IMG/VR virus record: IMGVR_UViG_3300046804_001904
Coordinates: 1-22,751 of that record
Reading direction: 5' to 3' (one strand)
DNA: 22,751 nt
DNA from: a virus
Below the pieces are notes generated by a model, which saw nothing but the letters and a program-made list of their open reading frames with translations, did no database searches and had not been told where the DNA came from. The translations under genes were made by a program, and so were the position numbers. Numbering within the stretch: position 1 is the stretch's first letter; the number at the start of each line of letters is the position of its first letter. Shown here piece after piece: positions 7,650-17,852 of this stretch.

Positions 7650-7682
7650 CCCTGGGGGTTTTTCCCCTGGGGTCTTTTGTTG
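7650..7682 (+). terminator. Rho-independent terminator after the Cys-rich gene
   Basis: CCCTGGGG (7650-7657) pairs with CCCCTGGG (7664-7671) apart from one central T-T mismatch, around a loop GTTTTT. TCTTTTGTTG follows from 7673. It closes the transcript of the 6893 gene. Confidence 0.7.
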
Positions 7683-7731
7683 TGCCCATGCGTGGGTAGT
7701 ACAGGTGTACCGTGGGGGAGGGACGTTACGA

Positions 7732-7744
7732 CACAAGGACGCAC
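7732..7744 (+). promoter_or_regulatory. Translation-leader motif copy 2 (CACAAGGACGCAC)
   Basis: It sits 7 bases before ATG 7752 of the ribbon-helix-helix gene and supports that start over the in-frame GTG 7692. The AAGGA part is 12 bases from the ATG, a little long for a Shine-Dalgarno. The same block occurs at 8136 and, with one change, at 6324. Confidence 0.5.
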
Positions 7745-7751
7745 CCAGCTT

Positions 7752-7925
7752 ATGGCCTACAACCAGTACAGACGCACCACCAGCCAACGACTCAGCATTG
7801 TGCTGTCGAGGGCGGTGTTTAAGCGTGTTGAGGAACGCTCCCAGAACGAAGGACGCAGCATGAGCAACCTTGTGGCGTACCTTGTGGAGCGTGCCCTGTG
7901 TGACGAAACAACAACTGGCCGGTAA
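7752..7925 (+). CDS. Ribbon-helix-helix (CopG/Arc-type) DNA-binding protein
   Basis: This 57-residue protein matches the ribbon-helix-helix pattern: a short beta strand (TSQRLSIVLS), helix A (RAVFKRVEERSQNEG), a turn (RSMSNLV) and helix B (VAYLVERALCDE). Such proteins dimerise, insert the paired strands in the major groove and usually repress transcription from palindromic or tandem operators. It lies alone between two terminators, preceded by a leader motif and followed 4 bases later by palindromic site 4. With int and a MarR-like gene nearby it is a candidate for lysis-lysogeny or early gene control. The family call is good; the role is inferred. Confidence 0.75.
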   Translation: MAYNQYRRTTSQRLSIVLSRAVFKRVEERSQNEGRSMSNLVAYLVERALCDETTTGR

Positions 7926-8734: not shown

Positions 8735-8907
8735 CTTTGTTGTATTTACCTTTCATCGGATTCTATTGCGGTTGGCAGAGGCACTTTGCTACACGAAAGC
8801 CGCAATTTTCCTGCACAAGATCCTCCATTAATGCAGCGTACCATCAGTTTGAGCTAGTTTGGGACTGGTCTGATCCCGACGAAAGTGGTCCTCAAGCAGG
8901 TTGTTGA
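8731..8907 (+). CDS. Small Trp/Phe-rich unknown protein
   Basis: This 58-residue frame starts at the ATG of ATGA (8731) and ends at TGA 8905-8907, inside the start of the MarR-like gene. The sequence is aromatic-rich (MTLLYLPFIGFYCGWQRHFA, then FELVWDWSDPDESG). The coupled start argues for translation, but the sequence has no recognisable family and could be a fortuitous open frame. Confidence 0.4.
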   Translation: MTLLYLPFIGFYCGWQRHFATRKPQFSCTRSSINAAYHQFELVWDWSDPDESGPQAGC

Positions 8908-9235
8908 TGAAGACTTGTTACCTCTTTTAGAGGTGATGGCTGAGTTTCGGGCTCTCAGAAAGAGCCTACCGGCTCAAGCTGTTGCAGCATTTGTCTACAT
9001 CGCAATCCATGAACGTGTACTGCAAACTGATCTTGAGAAAGATCTTAAGATGAGTTCAGCTAGTGCAAGTCGCAATACAGACATGCTTTCTGATTGGGAT
9101 AGGTTCGGAAAACCCGGCCCTAATCTAATTAAAAAGGAACCAGACCCGTTGATGGGCAATCGAATGATCCTGTCAATGACACCACGTGGTGAACGTTTTG
9201 CCCTCACAATCAAGAGGATTCTCTATGGCACCTAG
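8885..9235 (+). CDS. MarR-like winged-helix regulator
   Basis: The 116-residue product starts at GTG 8885; no in-frame ATG exists before the domain other than one inside it. It has a helical N-terminus (LLPLLEVMAEFRALRKSL), a helix-turn-helix (LQTDLEKDLKMSSASASRNT) and the wing/C-terminal helix ending SMTPRGERFALTIKRIL, where 'MTPRGE' matches the MarR-family wing. It should bind DNA as a dimer. It overlaps the integrase start by 11 bases, so regulator and integrase are co-expressed; control of integration or lysogeny is the natural inference. Cyanopodoviruses with int often carry such a gene at this place. Confidence 0.65.
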   Translation: MVLKQVVDEDLLPLLEVMAEFRALRKSLPAQAVAAFVYIAIHERVLQTDLEKDLKMSSASASRNTDMLSDWDRFGKPGPNLIKKEPDPLMGNRMILSMTPRGERFALTIKRILYGT

Positions 9236-10304
9236 TCGCACATTTGGTGAGTGTGCTGAGTACACGTTTAAGACTCGCGATTCATGGGTACGTGAACGCA
9301 AGGCTGTTGATGAATGGAAACGCATTCAAAAACTGCCTAAGGATCAACGGCCACGTGACATTGCGAAGCCTTCGATGTTTCGCACCATTCAAGTTAACCA
9401 CATACTTGAACTGCGTGGTGCTAGTTACCCAATCTCTAGGCTCGATCAGGCTGGTGTTACTCAGCTAATCTTTGAGCTTGAAGATGAGCGCAACTGGACA
9501 TCAAAGGAGACAGCTAACAAGGTCATTGATACCATCCGAACTATCGTCAATCATTGCAAACGGCATCGTTTTATTGACGAAGCTCCGTTTGATGCGTTGG
9601 AGATGTTCAGTGGTTCGGAGTCACGTCTGACGTGGTTCACGATGTCACAGATGGAGCAGATGTATGAGGCTTCATGCAATGTCTTTGGTTACCCAGCGTT
9701 GGGCGAAATCTTCCTGACGTTGGGGCTTACAGGCATGCGTCTAGGTGAGCTTCAGAAGCTGCGTGTGATGGATGTCGACATCCCTAACCTGCGGATCCAC
9801 GTAGGTGGGCGCGACGGTTTTGTCACCAAGGCCAAAAACTGGCGTGTCATCCCAATTCAAGATCGGATCCTTCCGTTCATGATTGAAAGGACACGTGATC
9901 AGCCACCCAAGAAGCACATCTTTGCTGATGACTTCGGCTCTGCTGATGCGTTACGACGCTCGTTCAACAAGATCCGCAAGTATGTGGGGATTGATGAAAA
10001 GCATGTGATTCATTCACTGCGTCATAGCTATGCCACGTTCCTCAATGAGTCTGGTGTACCGCCAATGACCATCAAAGACTTGATGGGTCACAAACGGATC
10101 GAGACCACGCTTCGCTACTGCAAGGTATCGGATGTGGCCCGTAACCAGGCGCAGGAGGCCCTCAATGCCCAACTCCAGCGAGCTACCCAGCAGCCTGCCC
10201 CGGAGCCCGCTCAACCGTCCTATGACCAGCTCCTGAATCAGGTTAATGCTTTGCAACAGTTGCTGGCTCAGATGCCACAACTAGCTGCAATGACTCGGAT
10301 CTAA
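9225..10304 (+). CDS. int: Tyrosine-family phage integrase
   Basis: The start is ATG 9225, seven bases after AGAGG in the end of the preceding gene; this gives 359 residues (MAPSRTFGECAEYTF...). A helical core-binding domain occupies about residues 40-130. The catalytic domain shows Arg in LTGMRLGELQKLR (about 172), HxxR in HSLRHSYATF (about 262-265), the GHKRIETT segment (His about 288) and the nucleophile Tyr in LRYCKV (about 298). It would integrate the phage at the host tRNA-Leu gene, whose 5' half lies 140 bases downstream. The C-terminus is a Pro/Gln-rich tail. All active-site residues are present. Confidence 0.95.
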   Translation: MAPSRTFGECAEYTFKTRDSWVRERKAVDEWKRIQKLPKDQRPRDIAKPSMFRTIQVNHILELRGASYPISRLDQAGVTQLIFELEDERNWTSKETANKVIDTIRTIVNHCKRHRFIDEAPFDALEMFSGSESRLTWFTMSQMEQMYEASCNVFGYPALGEIFLTLGLTGMRLGELQKLRVMDVDIPNLRIHVGGRDGFVTKAKNWRVIPIQDRILPFMIERTRDQPPKKHIFADDFGSADALRRSFNKIRKYVGIDEKHVIHSLRHSYATFLNESGVPPMTIKDLMGHKRIETTLRYCKVSDVARNQAQEALNAQLQRATQQPAPEPAQPSYDQLLNQVNALQQLLAQMPQLAAMTRI

Positions 10305-10443
10305 CCGCTCCTAGCGGTGCTGTGATACGCTCTTTTCATCGGCTTCGGAGCGCCATCTCGGCGAGTCCCAAACCGAGATTTGCAGGGTCTGACGACTCGA
10401 TTTTTCCTTGAAATCGACTGCGGCAGTTGACCTTGTGCCACTT
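10304..10443. other. Inverted-repeat-rich stretch between int and attP core
   Basis: This 140-base stretch holds several short perfect inverted repeats: ACCGCT/AGCGGT (10304-10318), ATCTCGG/CCGAGAT (10355-10379), CGATTT/AAATCG around 10398-10416, and ACTGC-G-GCAGT near 10418-10428. Phage attachment regions carry arm-type integrase or accessory-factor sites beside the core, so these are candidates. The first could also be an inefficient terminator for int. Confidence 0.5.
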
Positions 10444-10484
10444 GCGGATGTGGCGGAATTGGTAGACGCGCTAGTTTCAGGTTC
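10444..10484 (+). other. attP: attP core: 5' half of a tRNA-Leu gene
   Basis: About 41 bases match the 5' part of a cyanobacterial tRNA-Leu gene: acceptor GCGGATG, D-arm TGGCGGAATTGGTAGACGC and the anticodon arm GCTAGTTTCAGGTTC, with CAG in the anticodon loop. Homology stops there: the next bases do not pair with CTAGT and no T-arm or 3' acceptor follows, so it is not a functional tRNA. Int-encoding P-SSP7 is reported to carry a comparable ~42-bp match to host tRNA-Leu just after int. Recombination at this core would restore an intact host tRNA. Confidence 0.85.
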
Positions 10485-10514
10485 GCGTTTCTCAGCACTG
10501 CATTGGTGAGTTAA

Positions 10515-10542
10515 GGCGGGGCTAGTCCCCGTCTTTTCTTTT
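10515..10542 (+). terminator. Rho-independent terminator after attP
   Basis: GGCGGGG (10515-10521) pairs with CCCCGTC (10527-10533; one G-T pair) around a 5-base loop, followed by TTTTCTTTT. It separates the int/att region from the RNA polymerase gene. Confidence 0.85.
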
Positions 10543-10553
10543 GCCTAGGTCGC

Positions 10554-10565
10554 TCCACTAGTGGA
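10554..10565. promoter_or_regulatory. Palindromic site 5 (TCCACTAGTGGA) upstream of the RNA polymerase gene
   Basis: A perfect 12-bp palindrome between the terminator and ATG 10611. The position suits an operator controlling entry into middle/late transcription. Confidence 0.6.
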
Positions 10566-10610
10566 TAGATCTTTTTACCGGTACTAGCCGCACACATTTC
10601 TTGAGACAAC

Positions 10611-12944
10611 ATGGTTTCACCTGCTCTCACCGAGCAACAAATTGAGCTGGAAAAGCGTGCCATTACCTACGGGCGGGAACGCTTGCTGGACAACACACGC
10701 AAGCTGGAGGAGCGCTCCTACGGGTCGGCAACGGTCTATGGGTCAGCCAGCATCCAGGCAGCCGTTGGAGAGGTCTCACGGGTCATAGAGGACACGCTGA
10801 GCCGCATCCACAAGGGGAAAAACGGAGCTGACTTCGCCACGATCCACCAGTACCTCGCTGAGATCGAGCCAGAGGCAGCAGCAGCCATCGCGTTGAAGCT
10901 GACCTTTGACAAGGTGTTCAGCCCTAAGGATCGGGCCAATGAGATCGCCAACGTGATCACTGCCATTGGCCAAGCCCTAGAGCAGGAGTGTCAGCTTCGT
11001 TGGTACGAGTCACAGGACAAAGACCTGTACGACCGCATCAAGCGGCAGTACTGGCACAGCGCCTGTGGCACCCAACAGAAAGCCACCGTGACTCGCACGA
11101 TGATGAATCGACACGATCATCATTGGACGCCATGGGGGACCGTCGTCAGGGCAAAGCTCGGTGGCTGGTTGCTGGATTGTGTGATGAAAGCGACTGGTTG
11201 GTTTGACCGGATCACCGTCAACAGGCACAACGGAACACCAACGCTCATCGTTCCAAGCCTTCTCTTTGCCATGCAAAAGGAAGAGCTGATGCAAGACGCT
11301 TTGATGTTTGCTCCAATGGCGTGGCCCATGCTGGTCCCACCCCGAGATTGGAGCCATATCAAGTCTGGTGGCTATCTACTCAACGAGGTGATGCATGGGC
11401 ATGAACTGGTCCGACGTGGTGATCACGCACTAATACAGGGGAACACACCACTCCTGTTTTTGAACAAGCTCCAAAAGGTTGCCTACACGCTCAACGAGTT
11501 CATCGTCGACGTGGCTGAGACCTTGATGGAGCGTCAGTACAAGGTCGGTAAGTTCTTGCCGATCATTGAGCTACCCCTCCCCAACAAACCGTTCGACATC
11601 GCGGAGAACGACGAGGCTAGGCACGAGTACAGACGGCAAGCAGCAGAGGCCATGAACCAGAACGCTGCGTCATTCAAACGGTCATGCCGTACACGAATGA
11701 CAATGGAGACCGTCAAGATCTTCAAGGAGAGAGATAAGTTCTATCTCCCGTGGTCCTTTGACTATCGAGGTCGAACGTATCCAATCCCAGCCTTTCTCAC
11801 CCCACAAGACACTGACTTCGGTAAATCCCTGCTGAAGTTTGCTGAGCCGTCGTTCATGACGGATGAAGCAGAGGCTTGGTTGGCATTCCAAGTGGCTACA
11901 ACCTACGGGTTGGACAAAGCCACGATGAAAGAACGCCAGGACTGGGTTCTCCAGAACCAAGACCTGATATCTCGTGTGGCTAACGCTCCACTAGTGGAGA
12001 TAGGCGAGTGGGAGGTTGCAGATGAGCCGTGGCAGTTCCTTGCTGCATGTGAGGAATACAACGCTTGTGTCATTGAGTGCACAAGAAGTTGGACAAATCT
12101 GCCGGTTGCTATTGACGCTACGTGCTCAGGTCTGCAGATCTTGGCTGGTATGGCGAGGGATCAATCAACTGCAAAGTTGGTAAATGTTCTTCCGTCAGAT
12201 CAGCCACAGGATGCATACAAAGTTGTGGCTGAGGTTGCTAAACCAAAACTGCCAGATCACCTAGCTGTTCTCCTTGATCGGAAGGTCACAAAGAGAACAG
12301 TCATGACAATCCCATACAACGCCACCAAACATTCTAATAGGGCTTACATCCGTGAAGCTCTTAAGGAAAAGGGTGCTGAGTTCACACCAGAGGAACTCAC
12401 TCTGATTGTTAACGCAGTCAGAGAAGCCATGTATGAAGTTGTCCCCGGTCCAATGCGTGTCATGGACTGGATCAAACAAGAAGTTGGCGCAGCGTTTAAG
12501 CGCGGCGTAGATCACCTTATTTGGGAGACACCGTCTGGCTTCATTGTGAAGCAAAATAGACGTAAGTTCAAAACAAAACGAGTAGAGCTAAAAATTTTAG
12601 GACGATGTGACATCAATTTAAATATCGCTCCTAAAGGCCCTGATGTTGCTGGTCATAAGTCCAGCACAGCTCCGAATCTTATTCACTCATTGGATGCTTC
12701 GATCCTTCATCAAGCATTCCTGAAGTTCAATGCACCGTTCACGGTGATCCACGATTCAGTCCTGTGTCGGGCAACTGATATGGGCACATTGAATCGCGTA
12801 GTTAGGGAAACCTACTGCGAAATCTTTTCAACTAGCAATCCACTTGTGGACTTTGCTGAAGCCATCGGAGCAGAGACAGAACCACCAATCATTGGTGATC
12901 TTGATCTTGATTCCGTTCTTGAATCCACCTATTTCTTTTGTTAA
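10611..12944 (+). CDS. T7-type single-subunit RNA polymerase
   Basis: The 777-residue protein (T7: 883) shows the family motifs in order: PWSFDYRGRTYP (T7 'DWRGR' region, about residue 378), motif A AIDATCSGLQ (catalytic Asp about 502), motif B RKVTKRTVMTIPYNATKH (about 557-574), and motif C APNLIHSLDAS plus FTVIHDSVL (second catalytic Asp about 713). It ends in an aromatic YFFC, like the C-terminal foot of T7 polymerase. It should transcribe middle and late phage genes from promoters such as A and B. Palindromic sites lie upstream (10554) and inside the gene (11987, 12839). Base composition falls from GC-rich in the first half towards AT-richer in the last third. Confidence 0.97.
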   Translation: MVSPALTEQQIELEKRAITYGRERLLDNTRKLEERSYGSATVYGSASIQAAVGEVSRVIEDTLSRIHKGKNGADFATIHQYLAEIEPEAAAAIALKLTFDKVFSPKDRANEIANVITAIGQALEQECQLRWYESQDKDLYDRIKRQYWHSACGTQQKATVTRTMMNRHDHHWTPWGTVVRAKLGGWLLDCVMKATGWFDRITVNRHNGTPTLIVPSLLFAMQKEELMQDALMFAPMAWPMLVPPRDWSHIKSGGYLLNEVMHGHELVRRGDHALIQGNTPLLFLNKLQKVAYTLNEFIVDVAETLMERQYKVGKFLPIIELPLPNKPFDIAENDEARHEYRRQAAEAMNQNAASFKRSCRTRMTMETVKIFKERDKFYLPWSFDYRGRTYPIPAFLTPQDTDFGKSLLKFAEPSFMTDEAEAWLAFQVATTYGLDKATMKERQDWVLQNQDLISRVANAPLVEIGEWEVADEPWQFLAACEEYNACVIECTRSWTNLPVAIDATCSGLQILAGMARDQSTAKLVNVLPSDQPQDAYKVVAEVAKPKLPDHLAVLLDRKVTKRTVMTIPYNATKHSNRAYIREALKEKGAEFTPEELTLIVNAVREAMYEVVPGPMRVMDWIKQEVGAAFKRGVDHLIWETPSGFIVKQNRRKFKTKRVELKILGRCDINLNIAPKGPDVAGHKSSTAPNLIHSLDASILHQAFLKFNAPFTVIHDSVLCRATDMGTLNRVVRETYCEIFSTSNPLVDFAEAIGAETEPPIIGDLDLDSVLESTYFFC
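11987..11998. repeat. Palindromic site 6 (TCCACTAGTGGA) within the RNA polymerase gene
   Basis: It is identical to site 5 and extends to 14 bp (CTCCACTAGTGGAG, 11986-11999). Being in coding sequence it may be a chance or roadblock site, but the identity with the upstream site is striking. Confidence 0.45.
12839..12850. repeat. Palindromic site 7 (TCCACTTGTGGA) near the end of the RNA polymerase gene
   Basis: This is the exact reverse complement of site 3 (TCCACAAGTGGA), located about 95 bases before the SSB start. Confidence 0.45.
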
Positions 12945-15903: not shown

Positions 15904-16066
15904 CACTGAAACACTCATCATTTGCACCAAGGAAGAACTCCTGGCTATGCATAAACGGGGTGAGATTGAAGGTGAAGGGTTTGTGATCACTACCGAAGCA
16001 TTGTTTGAAGTACTTGCTGAGTACTACGGAGTCAACCCACACTGGCAACCTAATGATGTCTATTGA
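15896..16066 (+). CDS. Small acidic unknown protein
   Basis: The frame from ATG 15896 encodes 56 residues: MDDTETLIICTKEELLAMHK, then GEIEGEGFVITTEALFEVLA and EYYGVNPHWQPNDVY. An in-frame ATG at 15887 would add three residues. Its TGA (16064-16066) shares a base with the exonuclease ATG, a TGATG coupling that supports real translation. The composition suggests a small alpha/beta fold. Function unknown. Confidence 0.6.
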   Translation: MDDTETLIICTKEELLAMHKRGEIEGEGFVITTEALFEVLAEYYGVNPHWQPNDVY

Positions 16067-16632
16067 TGAACCTACTTTTCGACATCGAGACTGACGGACT
16101 GTACGACAACCTTACGACCATCCACTGTGTTGCTATCAAAGACCTTGGTAACAATGAGGTTTATGTCTTTAACGATGAGGGTAATCAGCCACCTATTGCT
16201 CGTGCCATCACGATGCTGGAGGAGGCTGACACGATCATTGGGCAGAACGTAATTAATTACGACATCCCAGTCATCCAGAAGTTCTACCCATGGTTCACAC
16301 CACCACGGACCATTGACACTCTTATTCTTAGCCGTTTGTATCATCCTGATCTGCTTAAGATTGATGGTATTAGGAAGTGGAACCACATGCCACTCCAACT
16401 CTACGGACGACATTCGTTAGAGGCATACGGTTACAGATTAGGTGAGTACAAGGGTGGCTTTGCCAAGCAAACTGACTGGAAAAACTGGTCTCAAGACATG
16501 GAGGACTATTGCGTACAGGACTTACAAGTCACACACAAACTATGGAATCACTTCCAGAAAAAGATCCAACAACAAGCAAAGGAGGATCAGGAGTTGAAGT
16601 CCCAGAATGGGTCACGCTTGAGCACCAAGTAG
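16066..16632 (+). CDS. DNA polymerase, N-terminal 3'-5' exonuclease part (split gene)
   Basis: The 188-residue protein corresponds to the proofreading domain of T7 DNA polymerase: Exo I LLFDIETDGL (Asp and Glu at about 6 and 8), Exo II DTIIGQNVINYDIPVI, and Exo III DYCVQDLQVTHKLW (Tyr and Asp). It then runs into a Gln/Lys-rich stretch that lacks family character and stops at 16630-16632. The polymerase domain continues in the -1 frame from within this gene. The true exonuclease-like reading ends near the A5 run at 16558-16562. Either a programmed frameshift joins the parts, or they are two proteins, or one A is missing from the assembly. Confidence 0.88.
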   Translation: MNLLFDIETDGLYDNLTTIHCVAIKDLGNNEVYVFNDEGNQPPIARAITMLEEADTIIGQNVINYDIPVIQKFYPWFTPPRTIDTLILSRLYHPDLLKIDGIRKWNHMPLQLYGRHSLEAYGYRLGEYKGGFAKQTDWKNWSQDMEDYCVQDLQVTHKLWNHFQKKIQQQAKEDQELKSQNGSRLSTK

Positions 16633-17852
16633 CAGAAATCCTCACTAAACAACAGTTGCATGGATGGCATTTCGACGAACGATCCGCTCATGAGTTGGAA
16701 TCAGAACTACGATCTGCATTTGACTCGCTGCAAGGATCTCTTCGACAGCGGCACCCTTTCGTTGCGGGAGGCGAGTTTACTCCTCGTCGTTCTAACAAGA
16801 CCAAGGGATATCTACCTGGATGCCCTTTTACGCGCATCAAGGATCTTAGCCCAACCTCGCGAGATCACATCGCATGGGTCATGCAAGAGTTCTACGGATG
16901 GGAACCAACTGAATTTACAAAATCAGGAAAAGAAGCTATTGACGAAGTAGTTCTAAAGGACATAGGTACTCCAATTGCGCTGGACTTTCTTCAGTGTTTG
17001 GAACTGACTAAGCAGCTTGGCATGTTGTCAGACGGCAACAACGCCTGGCTAAAGCTTGTCAGAAAGGGCCGAATCCATCACCACTGCTCCGTTGCAACTA
17101 ACACTCACCGATGTGCCCATAGAAACCCAAATCTGGCCCAAGTCCCATCTGATGAACGATTCAGACGACTCTTCACTGCAACTCCAGGACTATGCATGGT
17201 TGGGGCCGATCTTAGCGGCATCGAGTTGCGGATGTTCGCGCATTACCTTAGTAAGTATGACAGTGGCCGCTATGGTGAGATCTTGCTTAATGGCGACATC
17301 CACCAAGTTAATGCCGACAAGATTGGCATTAGTCGTAAGCTCGTCAAAACCGTTACCTATGCTTTTCTTTATGGGGCAGGGAACGAAAAGATCGGACTTT
17401 CCTATGACCCTCAGCTTCCAGCCGATAAGGCAAAGAAGAAAGGGGCAGAGATACGGCAAGCGTATCTTGATGCAATTGAAGGTCTTAGCGATCTTGTTGA
17501 GGCCGTCAAGAAAAAGGTTCAATCAGTTGGCTACGTCAATTCAATTGATGGACGGCGTATCGCTGTTGATGGACCCCATAAAGCTCTGAACTATCTTCTG
17601 CAATCAGGAGCTGGTGTCATTGCAAAGCGATGGATGGTCATCGCTAACGATCAAATTAAACAACTAAATATTGAAGCTGATCAACTGGCATTTGTTCATG
17701 ATGAGCTTCAGTTTGAATGTAACCCCGCTCATGCGGACACTCTAATGTTTAACCTTGAATTGTCAGCAGCTCTCGCTGGCGAATATTACGGGATGCGAGT
17801 CCCTATTGCAGCCGAAGCTAAAAAGGGAGCCAACTGGTCAGAAGTGCATTAA
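16542..17852 (+). CDS. DNA polymerase, family A polymerase part (split gene)
   Basis: Read from ATG 16542 (436 residues), it contains the T7-type polymerase domain: VPEWVTLEHQVAEIL, where intact family members link exonuclease and polymerase, then HHHCSVATNTHRCAH, motif A GADLSGIELRMFAHYLS, motif B RKLVKTVTYAFLYGAG and motif C AFVHDELQFEC. The C-terminus GANWSEVH is normal. No Shine-Dalgarno sequence precedes ATG 16542. A purine block AAAGGAGG lies further in (about 16577-16584) but has no in-frame start at a useful distance. This supports either frameshift expression or a sequencing/assembly gap over separate initiation. All catalytic residues are present. Confidence 0.92.
   Translation: MESLPEKDPTTSKGGSGVEVPEWVTLEHQVAEILTKQQLHGWHFDERSAHELESELRSAFDSLQGSLRQRHPFVAGGEFTPRRSNKTKGYLPGCPFTRIKDLSPTSRDHIAWVMQEFYGWEPTEFTKSGKEAIDEVVLKDIGTPIALDFLQCLELTKQLGMLSDGNNAWLKLVRKGRIHHHCSVATNTHRCAHRNPNLAQVPSDERFRRLFTATPGLCMVGADLSGIELRMFAHYLSKYDSGRYGEILLNGDIHQVNADKIGISRKLVKTVTYAFLYGAGNEKIGLSYDPQLPADKAKKKGAEIRQAYLDAIEGLSDLVEAVKKKVQSVGYVNSIDGRRIAVDGPHKALNYLLQSGAGVIAKRWMVIANDQIKQLNIEADQLAFVHDELQFECNPAHADTLMFNLELSAALAGEYYGMRVPIAAEAKKGANWSEVH

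Follow-up and report, generated by a model that had tools for sequence, protein, structure and literature searches.

Organisation of the integrase and attP region

The window (the whole stretch of DNA that was analysed, a viral contig of 22,751 bp) encodes the following features at and around the site under study, all of them on the + strand:

7677..7925, +, ribbon-helix-helix (RHH_5/Arc-like) protein, a possible second regulator
8885..9235, +, MarR-like winged-helix regulator, overlapping int
9225..10304, +, int, tyrosine recombinase of 359 aa (R172, K202/K204, H263, R266, H289, Y298)
10323..10331, +, promoter-like extended -10 element, TGATACGCT, between int and attP and directed through attP
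10444..10482, +, attP core, 39 bp, with exactly the sequence of picocyanobacterial tRNA-Leu(CAG) over its 5' half: acceptor strand, D arm, 5' strand of the anticodon stem (10471-10475) and anticodon loop TTCAGGT (10476-10482), with the anticodon CAG at 10478-10480
10483..10484, +, T-C, the bases after the core, phage-side
10513..10535, +, intrinsic terminator, AAGGCGGGG-ctagt-CCCCGTCTT followed by TTCTTTT, 30 nt past the core
10611..12944, +, T7-like single-subunit RNA polymerase, the first gene downstream of attP

The int product matches Pfam Phage_integrase (E = 1.4e-23) and PHROG integrases. Its catalytic residues were taken from an alignment to a XerC-like structure, and the whole set of active recombinases (R...K...HxxR...H...Y) is there. 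The pattern HxxRH...G[H]...Y with R..E is kept in 124 of the 126 viral integrases examined, and the two lacking it seem to be truncated reading frames. The window integrase is complete, as the first-pass annotation had stated, and with all these residues present it looks active rather than inactive. The genes around the site include the single-subunit RNA polymerase and a T7 terminase, which place the phage among the T7-like (Autographiviridae) cyanophages. Two adjacent HNH endonuclease genes (578-823 and 823-1152) lie beside the terminase region, and the DNA polymerase is split into two overlapping frames, 16063-16632 (exonuclease part) and 16509-17852 (polymerase part).

The attP core and its host counterparts

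The 41-mer at 10444-10484 occurs once in the 22,751-bp record; its start lies 139 nt beyond the stop codon of int (10302-10304), in agreement with the half tRNA about 140 bases past the integrase that had been noticed earlier. ARAGORN found no complete tRNA in the window, indicating that the site is only a half tRNA, and no Rfam family matched in 10290-10620. The exact 41-mer, proposed in the first-pass annotation as the sequence to look for in cyanobacterial tRNA-Leu genes, had no match in 84,980 bacterial and archaeal genomes and was dropped as a host probe, base 10483 being phage-specific; the 39-mer at 10444-10482 matched exactly in at least 120 genome contigs, and among the matches listed nearly all are tRNA-Leu(CAG) genes of Synechococcus, Cyanobium, Vulcanococcus and Prochlorococcus. 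Past the 39-mer these host sequences read ACTAG or ATTAG and never T-C, with ACTATG as the lone exception among the matches listed. Since hosts continue with A and not with T-C, the identity extends to the final base of the anticodon loop and no further; judged from these alignments T10483 is phage-specific, and C10484 agrees with the hosts by coincidence. The earlier reading of a tRNA-Leu 5' half followed by an abrupt loss of homology is thus borne out, hosts diverging at 10483, and the length of the match is to be corrected from about 41 to 39 bp.

The site belongs to a known kind. Published attP motifs of T7-like cyanophages are 39 bp long, correspond to the first half of tRNA-Leu and were found in 11 of 13 int-bearing genomes (PMC8776855). 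Integration at tRNA-Leu is documented for P-SSP7 and S-TIP37 (Shitrit et al. 2021, PMC8776855; P-SSP7 is credited there to an earlier report), and in S-TIP37 the deletion of either int or attP abolishes integration (PMC8776855). The window has the same arrangement, a codirectional tyrosine integrase gene upstream of 39 bp that are identical with the first half of tRNA-Leu; its attP is of this experimentally proven kind and the phage is a further member of the group. S-TIP37 shares the core word exactly and has the int/attP/MarR-like cassette in common with the window, with integrases 35% identical. P-SSP7 also has int followed by a tRNA-Leu 5' half, and a MarR-like gene (integrases 29% identical), but its core differs, the anticodon region reading ACTTAAAAA, so that it does not correspond to the CAG gene. 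The closest sequenced relative is S-SRP01, a Synechococcus phage from Serangoon Reservoir, Singapore: its integrase is 42% identical at the amino acid level, its DNA is 79% identical from attP through the polymerase, and a 53-bp match at 98% spans the window attP. We know of no integration test of S-SRP01.

Conservation of the core among viral loci

At least 160 viral contigs bear the 39-mer. Among the 167 exact-core matches listed, int was detectable in 152, always upstream, on the same strand and at most 573 nt from the end of the int match, and the remaining 15 have less than 1.2 kb of sequence upstream of the core. Where an RNA polymerase was found among these 167, it lay downstream in 138 and upstream in 16; the two bases after the core were TC in 119 of the 167 and AC, as in the hosts, in 32. 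In 93 dereplicated viral loci the column consensus was 0.53 over the 60 nt before the core and 0.51 over the 60 nt after it; the core consensus of 1.00 in these loci follows from their having been chosen by the core, and it is the divergence of the flanks which argues that the core match is not due to chance. Megablast of 4 kb around the site gave the same picture: S-SRP01 apart, the named phages S-CBP1, S-CBP2, S-TIP28 and S-TIP37 share with the window only a 42-bp word.

A tRNA half captured by chance, or kept as a vestige that is out of use, would be consistent with the lack of any junction of the window phage's own: the attL of its T-C type (41-mer) was found in none of the 84,980 genomes, and the attR pattern in none of the viral contigs. 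We regard this explanation as highly improbable: at least 160 loci have the identical core while their flanks diverge, it follows int wherever int is visible, and the catalytic residues of the integrase are intact.

A provirus in Synechococcus AG-670-B23

The one host match continuing ACTATG rather than ACTAG (L186), found in the scan with the 39-mer, sits on contig QCSL01000012.1 (G280:C12; 52,265 bp) of the single-cell genome Synechococcus sp. AG-670-B23. Three further loci on this contig (L318, L321, L322) belong with it to an apparently complete T7-like cyanophage provirus at tRNA-Leu(CAG). The order is: host murA; the core (48124-48086); a phage right arm with the terminator; genes for SSB, endonuclease, primase/helicase, DNA polymerase, exonuclease, RNR, portal, capsid, tail and internal virion proteins, terminase, ThyX and RNA polymerase; int; a complete tRNA-Leu(CAG) (2610-2526); and Synechococcus-type DNA. 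The insert, 45,514 bp when counted from core to core, is as long as a T7-like cyanophage genome; its main genes are uninterrupted, and the phage gene order is permuted precisely at attP, as expected under the Campbell model. The left flank matches the cultured strain MU1642 at 88% over 4,181 bp up to the end of the core, and MU1642 has an empty site where AG-670-B23 has the insert. On the attR side the DNA is Synechococcus-like, but the canonical neighbour gene of tRNA-Leu is not there; two other Synechococcus-type genomes have, in a chromosomal island, a gene 93% identical to the fasciclin gene of this right flank.

The provirus shares with the window the core, the int-attP order and the T7-like genes. 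It differs in being integrated, in having a right arm of the A-C type, in its integrase (26% identical to that of the window) and in gene order, the polymerase preceding int and SSB following attP, where in the window the polymerase is the first gene after attP. Its DNA polymerase is one frame of 592 aa, unlike the split version of the window. An extra C is present in the attR core (GAATCTGG) and absent from that of attL; the exchange should therefore have taken place 3' of that C, towards the anticodon loop; comparison of attL and attR in this provirus thus indicates that strand exchange probably occurs in or next to the loop.

A second junction was found in a metagenomic contig of 4,339 bp (L292, IMGVR_UViG_3300034198_030546), in which host murA is followed by the core and a phage right arm. 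The host part covers 1.5 kb (87% identical to a MAG, L175) and the phage part 2.7 kb (82.5% identical to another locus, L028); by its sequence, this contig is a host-phage attL junction. A third contig (L261), which starts with 15 bp of host flank followed by the core, is a weak junction.

Since host and phage have the core as an exact repeat, assembly or amplification through these 39 bp could in principle join the two into chimeras, and the mere 15 bp of host sequence in L261 would fit this. For AG-670-B23 and L292 such an origin appears quite improbable: AG-670-B23 has both junctions on one contig, a gene order permuted at attP, a left flank colinear with MU1642 to the very end of the core and no second core or attB copy anywhere in the genome, and L292 joins long stretches of host and phage DNA. 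Chimeras are possible in single-cell amplification, and two of them at the exact predicted points are unlikely.

The AG-670 cells are part of the data set of Berube et al. 2018 (PMC6122165), to which Shitrit et al. refer when stating that intact prophages are absent (PMC8776855). No paper naming AG-670-B23 was found in open-access full text; subscription papers and preprints lay outside this search, and an earlier mention is possible. According to its citation in PMC8776855, a prophage of marine Synechococcus has been described by Flores-Uribe et al. 2019, with cyanophage genes in a Synechococcus chromosome as in AG-670-B23, and is termed there a 'relic'. The prophage state of T7-like viruses of picocyanobacteria is a long-standing question, in which AG-670-B23 and L292 are counter-examples to be checked.

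An intact tRNA-Leu on the cyanobacterial MAG contig CANCJV010000068.1 (L214/L296, about 7707-7800) has before it a TGATAAGGT motif and a 28-bp stretch that is 93% identical to phage left arms. It was rejected as a prophage-bearing MAG, the 4.3 kb upstream of the tRNA being host-like and without recognisable phage genes, and is at most a candidate attR scar of an old integration.

Promoter-like and terminator sequences flanking the core

The motif TGNTANNNT is present within the last 130 nt before the core in 88 of 94 dereplicated loci, against 5.3 expected from dinucleotide shuffles and 3.6 from random windows of the same contigs; in these loci it was never found on the reverse strand and once in the 130 nt downstream. 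The stricter TGNTACNNT occurs in 71 of the 94 (1.2-1.4 expected). Only one of 94 host tRNA-Leu genes has the motif, and many of them, inspected by eye, have TATGTT or TATGGT instead, about 30 nt before the gene. The terminator after the core is also conserved, in position as well as in occurrence (82 of 93 loci, 5.1 expected). Among the named phages, P-SSP7 has TGTTATAAT, P-SSP2, P-SSP3 and SS120-1 have TATAAT, and S-SRP01 has TGTTAGGCT compared with TGATACGCT in the window; the strict motif is absent from S-TIP37, which has GTAGTACCAT, and the motif is missing from Syn5 and S-CBP42, both of which have int and no attP. The motif lies 112 nt from the core in the clade of the window, compared with a median of 55. 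In the attR of AG-670-B23, TGCTATATT is found 36 nt before the rebuilt tRNA.

No clear -35 box was found with the promoter motif; a [CT]GACT sequence enriched upstream of it was rejected as such because of its wrong spacing. The RNA from promoter to terminator was likewise discarded as a special fold (z = -1.4, unremarkable beyond the terminator). A 17-nt imperfect inverted repeat flanks the core (10314-10330, GCTGTGATACGC; 10485-10501, GCGTTTCTCAGC) and might represent the arm sites of Int; by eye, it is kept in only part of the close relatives.

The attP cores of phages that use tRNA genes are mostly 3' halves, so that the tRNA retains its own promoter. Here the core is a 5' half, and integration therefore parts the rebuilt tRNA from the host promoter. 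We infer that the phage promoter restores expression of the tRNA at attR, a reading which the motif position in AG-670-B23 fits, and that the terminator shields the lytic phage genes at attL. Mycobacteriophages with tRNA-dependent lysogeny (PMC10865867) are comparable in that the phage must handle the loss of an important host tRNA. There the tRNA is broken by a short core, and a whole tRNA gene comes with the phage; in the cyanophage cassette the tRNA is rebuilt by the core, and only a promoter would come with the phage.

Alternatively, the promoter, attP and terminator could serve the free phage, as a source of a short RNA with the 5' half of tRNA-Leu or as an early promoter for the RNA polymerase, with no rescue of the tRNA. 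Both elements are there in the non-integrated genome, the motif is conserved, and in the window the RNA polymerase is the next gene; however, the polymerase gene is separated from the promoter by the terminator, the cassette is found as well where SSB is the next known gene (S-TIP28 and the AG-670-B23 group), int-bearing phages without attP lack the motif, and exact identity to the tRNA is best explained by matching of the host gene. A function confined to the free phage is accordingly unlikely.

Integration and life style

We consider it very probable that the window holds the attP and integrase of a T7-like cyanophage which integrates by the Campbell route at tRNA-Leu(CAG), with promoter rescue and terminator insulation, rarely and as a rule transiently. 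Int would recombine attP with its identical counterpart in the host tRNA-Leu(CAG) gene, exchanging strands in or beside the anticodon loop, and the circularised phage genome would be inserted. At attR, the junction after int, the phage 5' half and the host 3' half would form a whole tRNA-Leu that has lost the host promoter and is most likely transcribed from the phage motif between int and attP. At attL, the terminator past attP would land behind the displaced host promoter and keep host transcription out of the phage genes. For its relatives integration has been demonstrated by others and is supported by the natural provirus; for the window phage itself it is likely. Speaking against this picture are the absence of a junction of its own from the genomes and viral contigs searched, the distance of the promoter motif from the core and its missing clear -35 box, the deviating motif of S-TIP37 and the non-canonical right flank of the AG-670-B23 insert. 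The first-pass assignment of the site as an attP at tRNA-Leu agrees with the identical 39-bp host cores, the active-looking integrase and the relatives integrated in nature (AG-670-B23, L292).

The further suggestion that the phage may be truly temperate, with stable lysogeny after integration at tRNA-Leu maintained by the MarR-like and/or the RHH protein, is not supported, and we judge it improbable. In its favour are the complete int and attP, the two DNA-binding proteins, the provirus that a relative has left, to all appearance intact, in a single cell from the wild, with long uninterrupted genes and a weak RHH match, and the candidate attR scar in the MAG. Both DNA-binding proteins had been noticed earlier. 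A MarR-like homologue adjoins int in P-SSP7, S-TIP37, S-CBP1, S-SRP01 and pelagiphages, is standard in int-bearing cyanopodoviruses and, being common to P-SSP7 and S-TIP37, is no argument for lysogeny. The RHH protein has no match in 50,697 phage records and 13 among the collected viral loci, one of them (L123) the window itself; with no relative in sequenced phages, it is proof neither for repression nor against it. S-TIP37 shares the cassette together with its MarR-like gene; it was integrated in about 0.3-1% of infected cells and gave no stable lysogens, and intact prophages have been reported absent (PMC8776855). An A-C type attL, in the pattern used for the scan, was found in only one of 400 sampled family genomes (AG-670-B23), indicating that the integrated state is rare, and this provirus may be a transient integration caught in a single-cell genome. 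The search for junctions and prophages suggested earlier thus succeeded for relatives and not for the lineage of the window, which gave none by exact 41-mer in the 84,980 genomes. The phage probably lives mainly by lytic growth and integrates rarely, in most cases only for a time.

The provirus, the L292 junction and the conserved promoter/terminator cassette go beyond PMC8776855, and the surprise lies in the provirus and the cassette, not in the site itself. If the proposed role holds, the cassette would account for integration at the 5' half of a tRNA gene that leaves this gene expressed, and predicts transcription of tRNA-Leu in integrated cells. We put forward, tentatively and as somewhat doubtful, the broader idea that T7-like cyanophages form real prophages in the wild and that their attP is purpose-built (promoter, tRNA 5' half, terminator) to give phage-driven tRNA-Leu(CAG) and to insulate the phage genes, in which case proviruses such as that of AG-670-B23 would be overlooked lysogens.

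Other phage-related loci in host genomes

Matches to int near the tmRNA of G035 and on contig 48 of G280 (AG-670-B23) were set aside as divergent relics (24-30% identity) that lie outside the system described here. These loci (L319, G035:C1, about 920-926 kb; L320, G280:C48) have a divergent int with in-frame stops and remnants of a T7-like RNA polymerase, and are relic prophages. T7-like genes in G026, G067, G364, G222 and G055 showed no tRNA-Leu(CAG) junction in the stretches examined. Two of these stretches (L337, G364:C25; L335, G067:C5), on host contigs of 1.2-Mb genomes, encode a terminase large subunit 82% identical to that of the window and hardly any of the other phage proteins that were looked for; G364 has an int-like gene immediately next to tRNA-Leu(TAA). 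They look like an integrative element or satellite that acquired a phage terminase. The locus L358 (G113:C1:1460001-1480000), with a fasciclin gene, a tyrosine recombinase-like gene, a MarR-like protein and a C-terminal terminase fragment, is a genomic island with a decayed phage.
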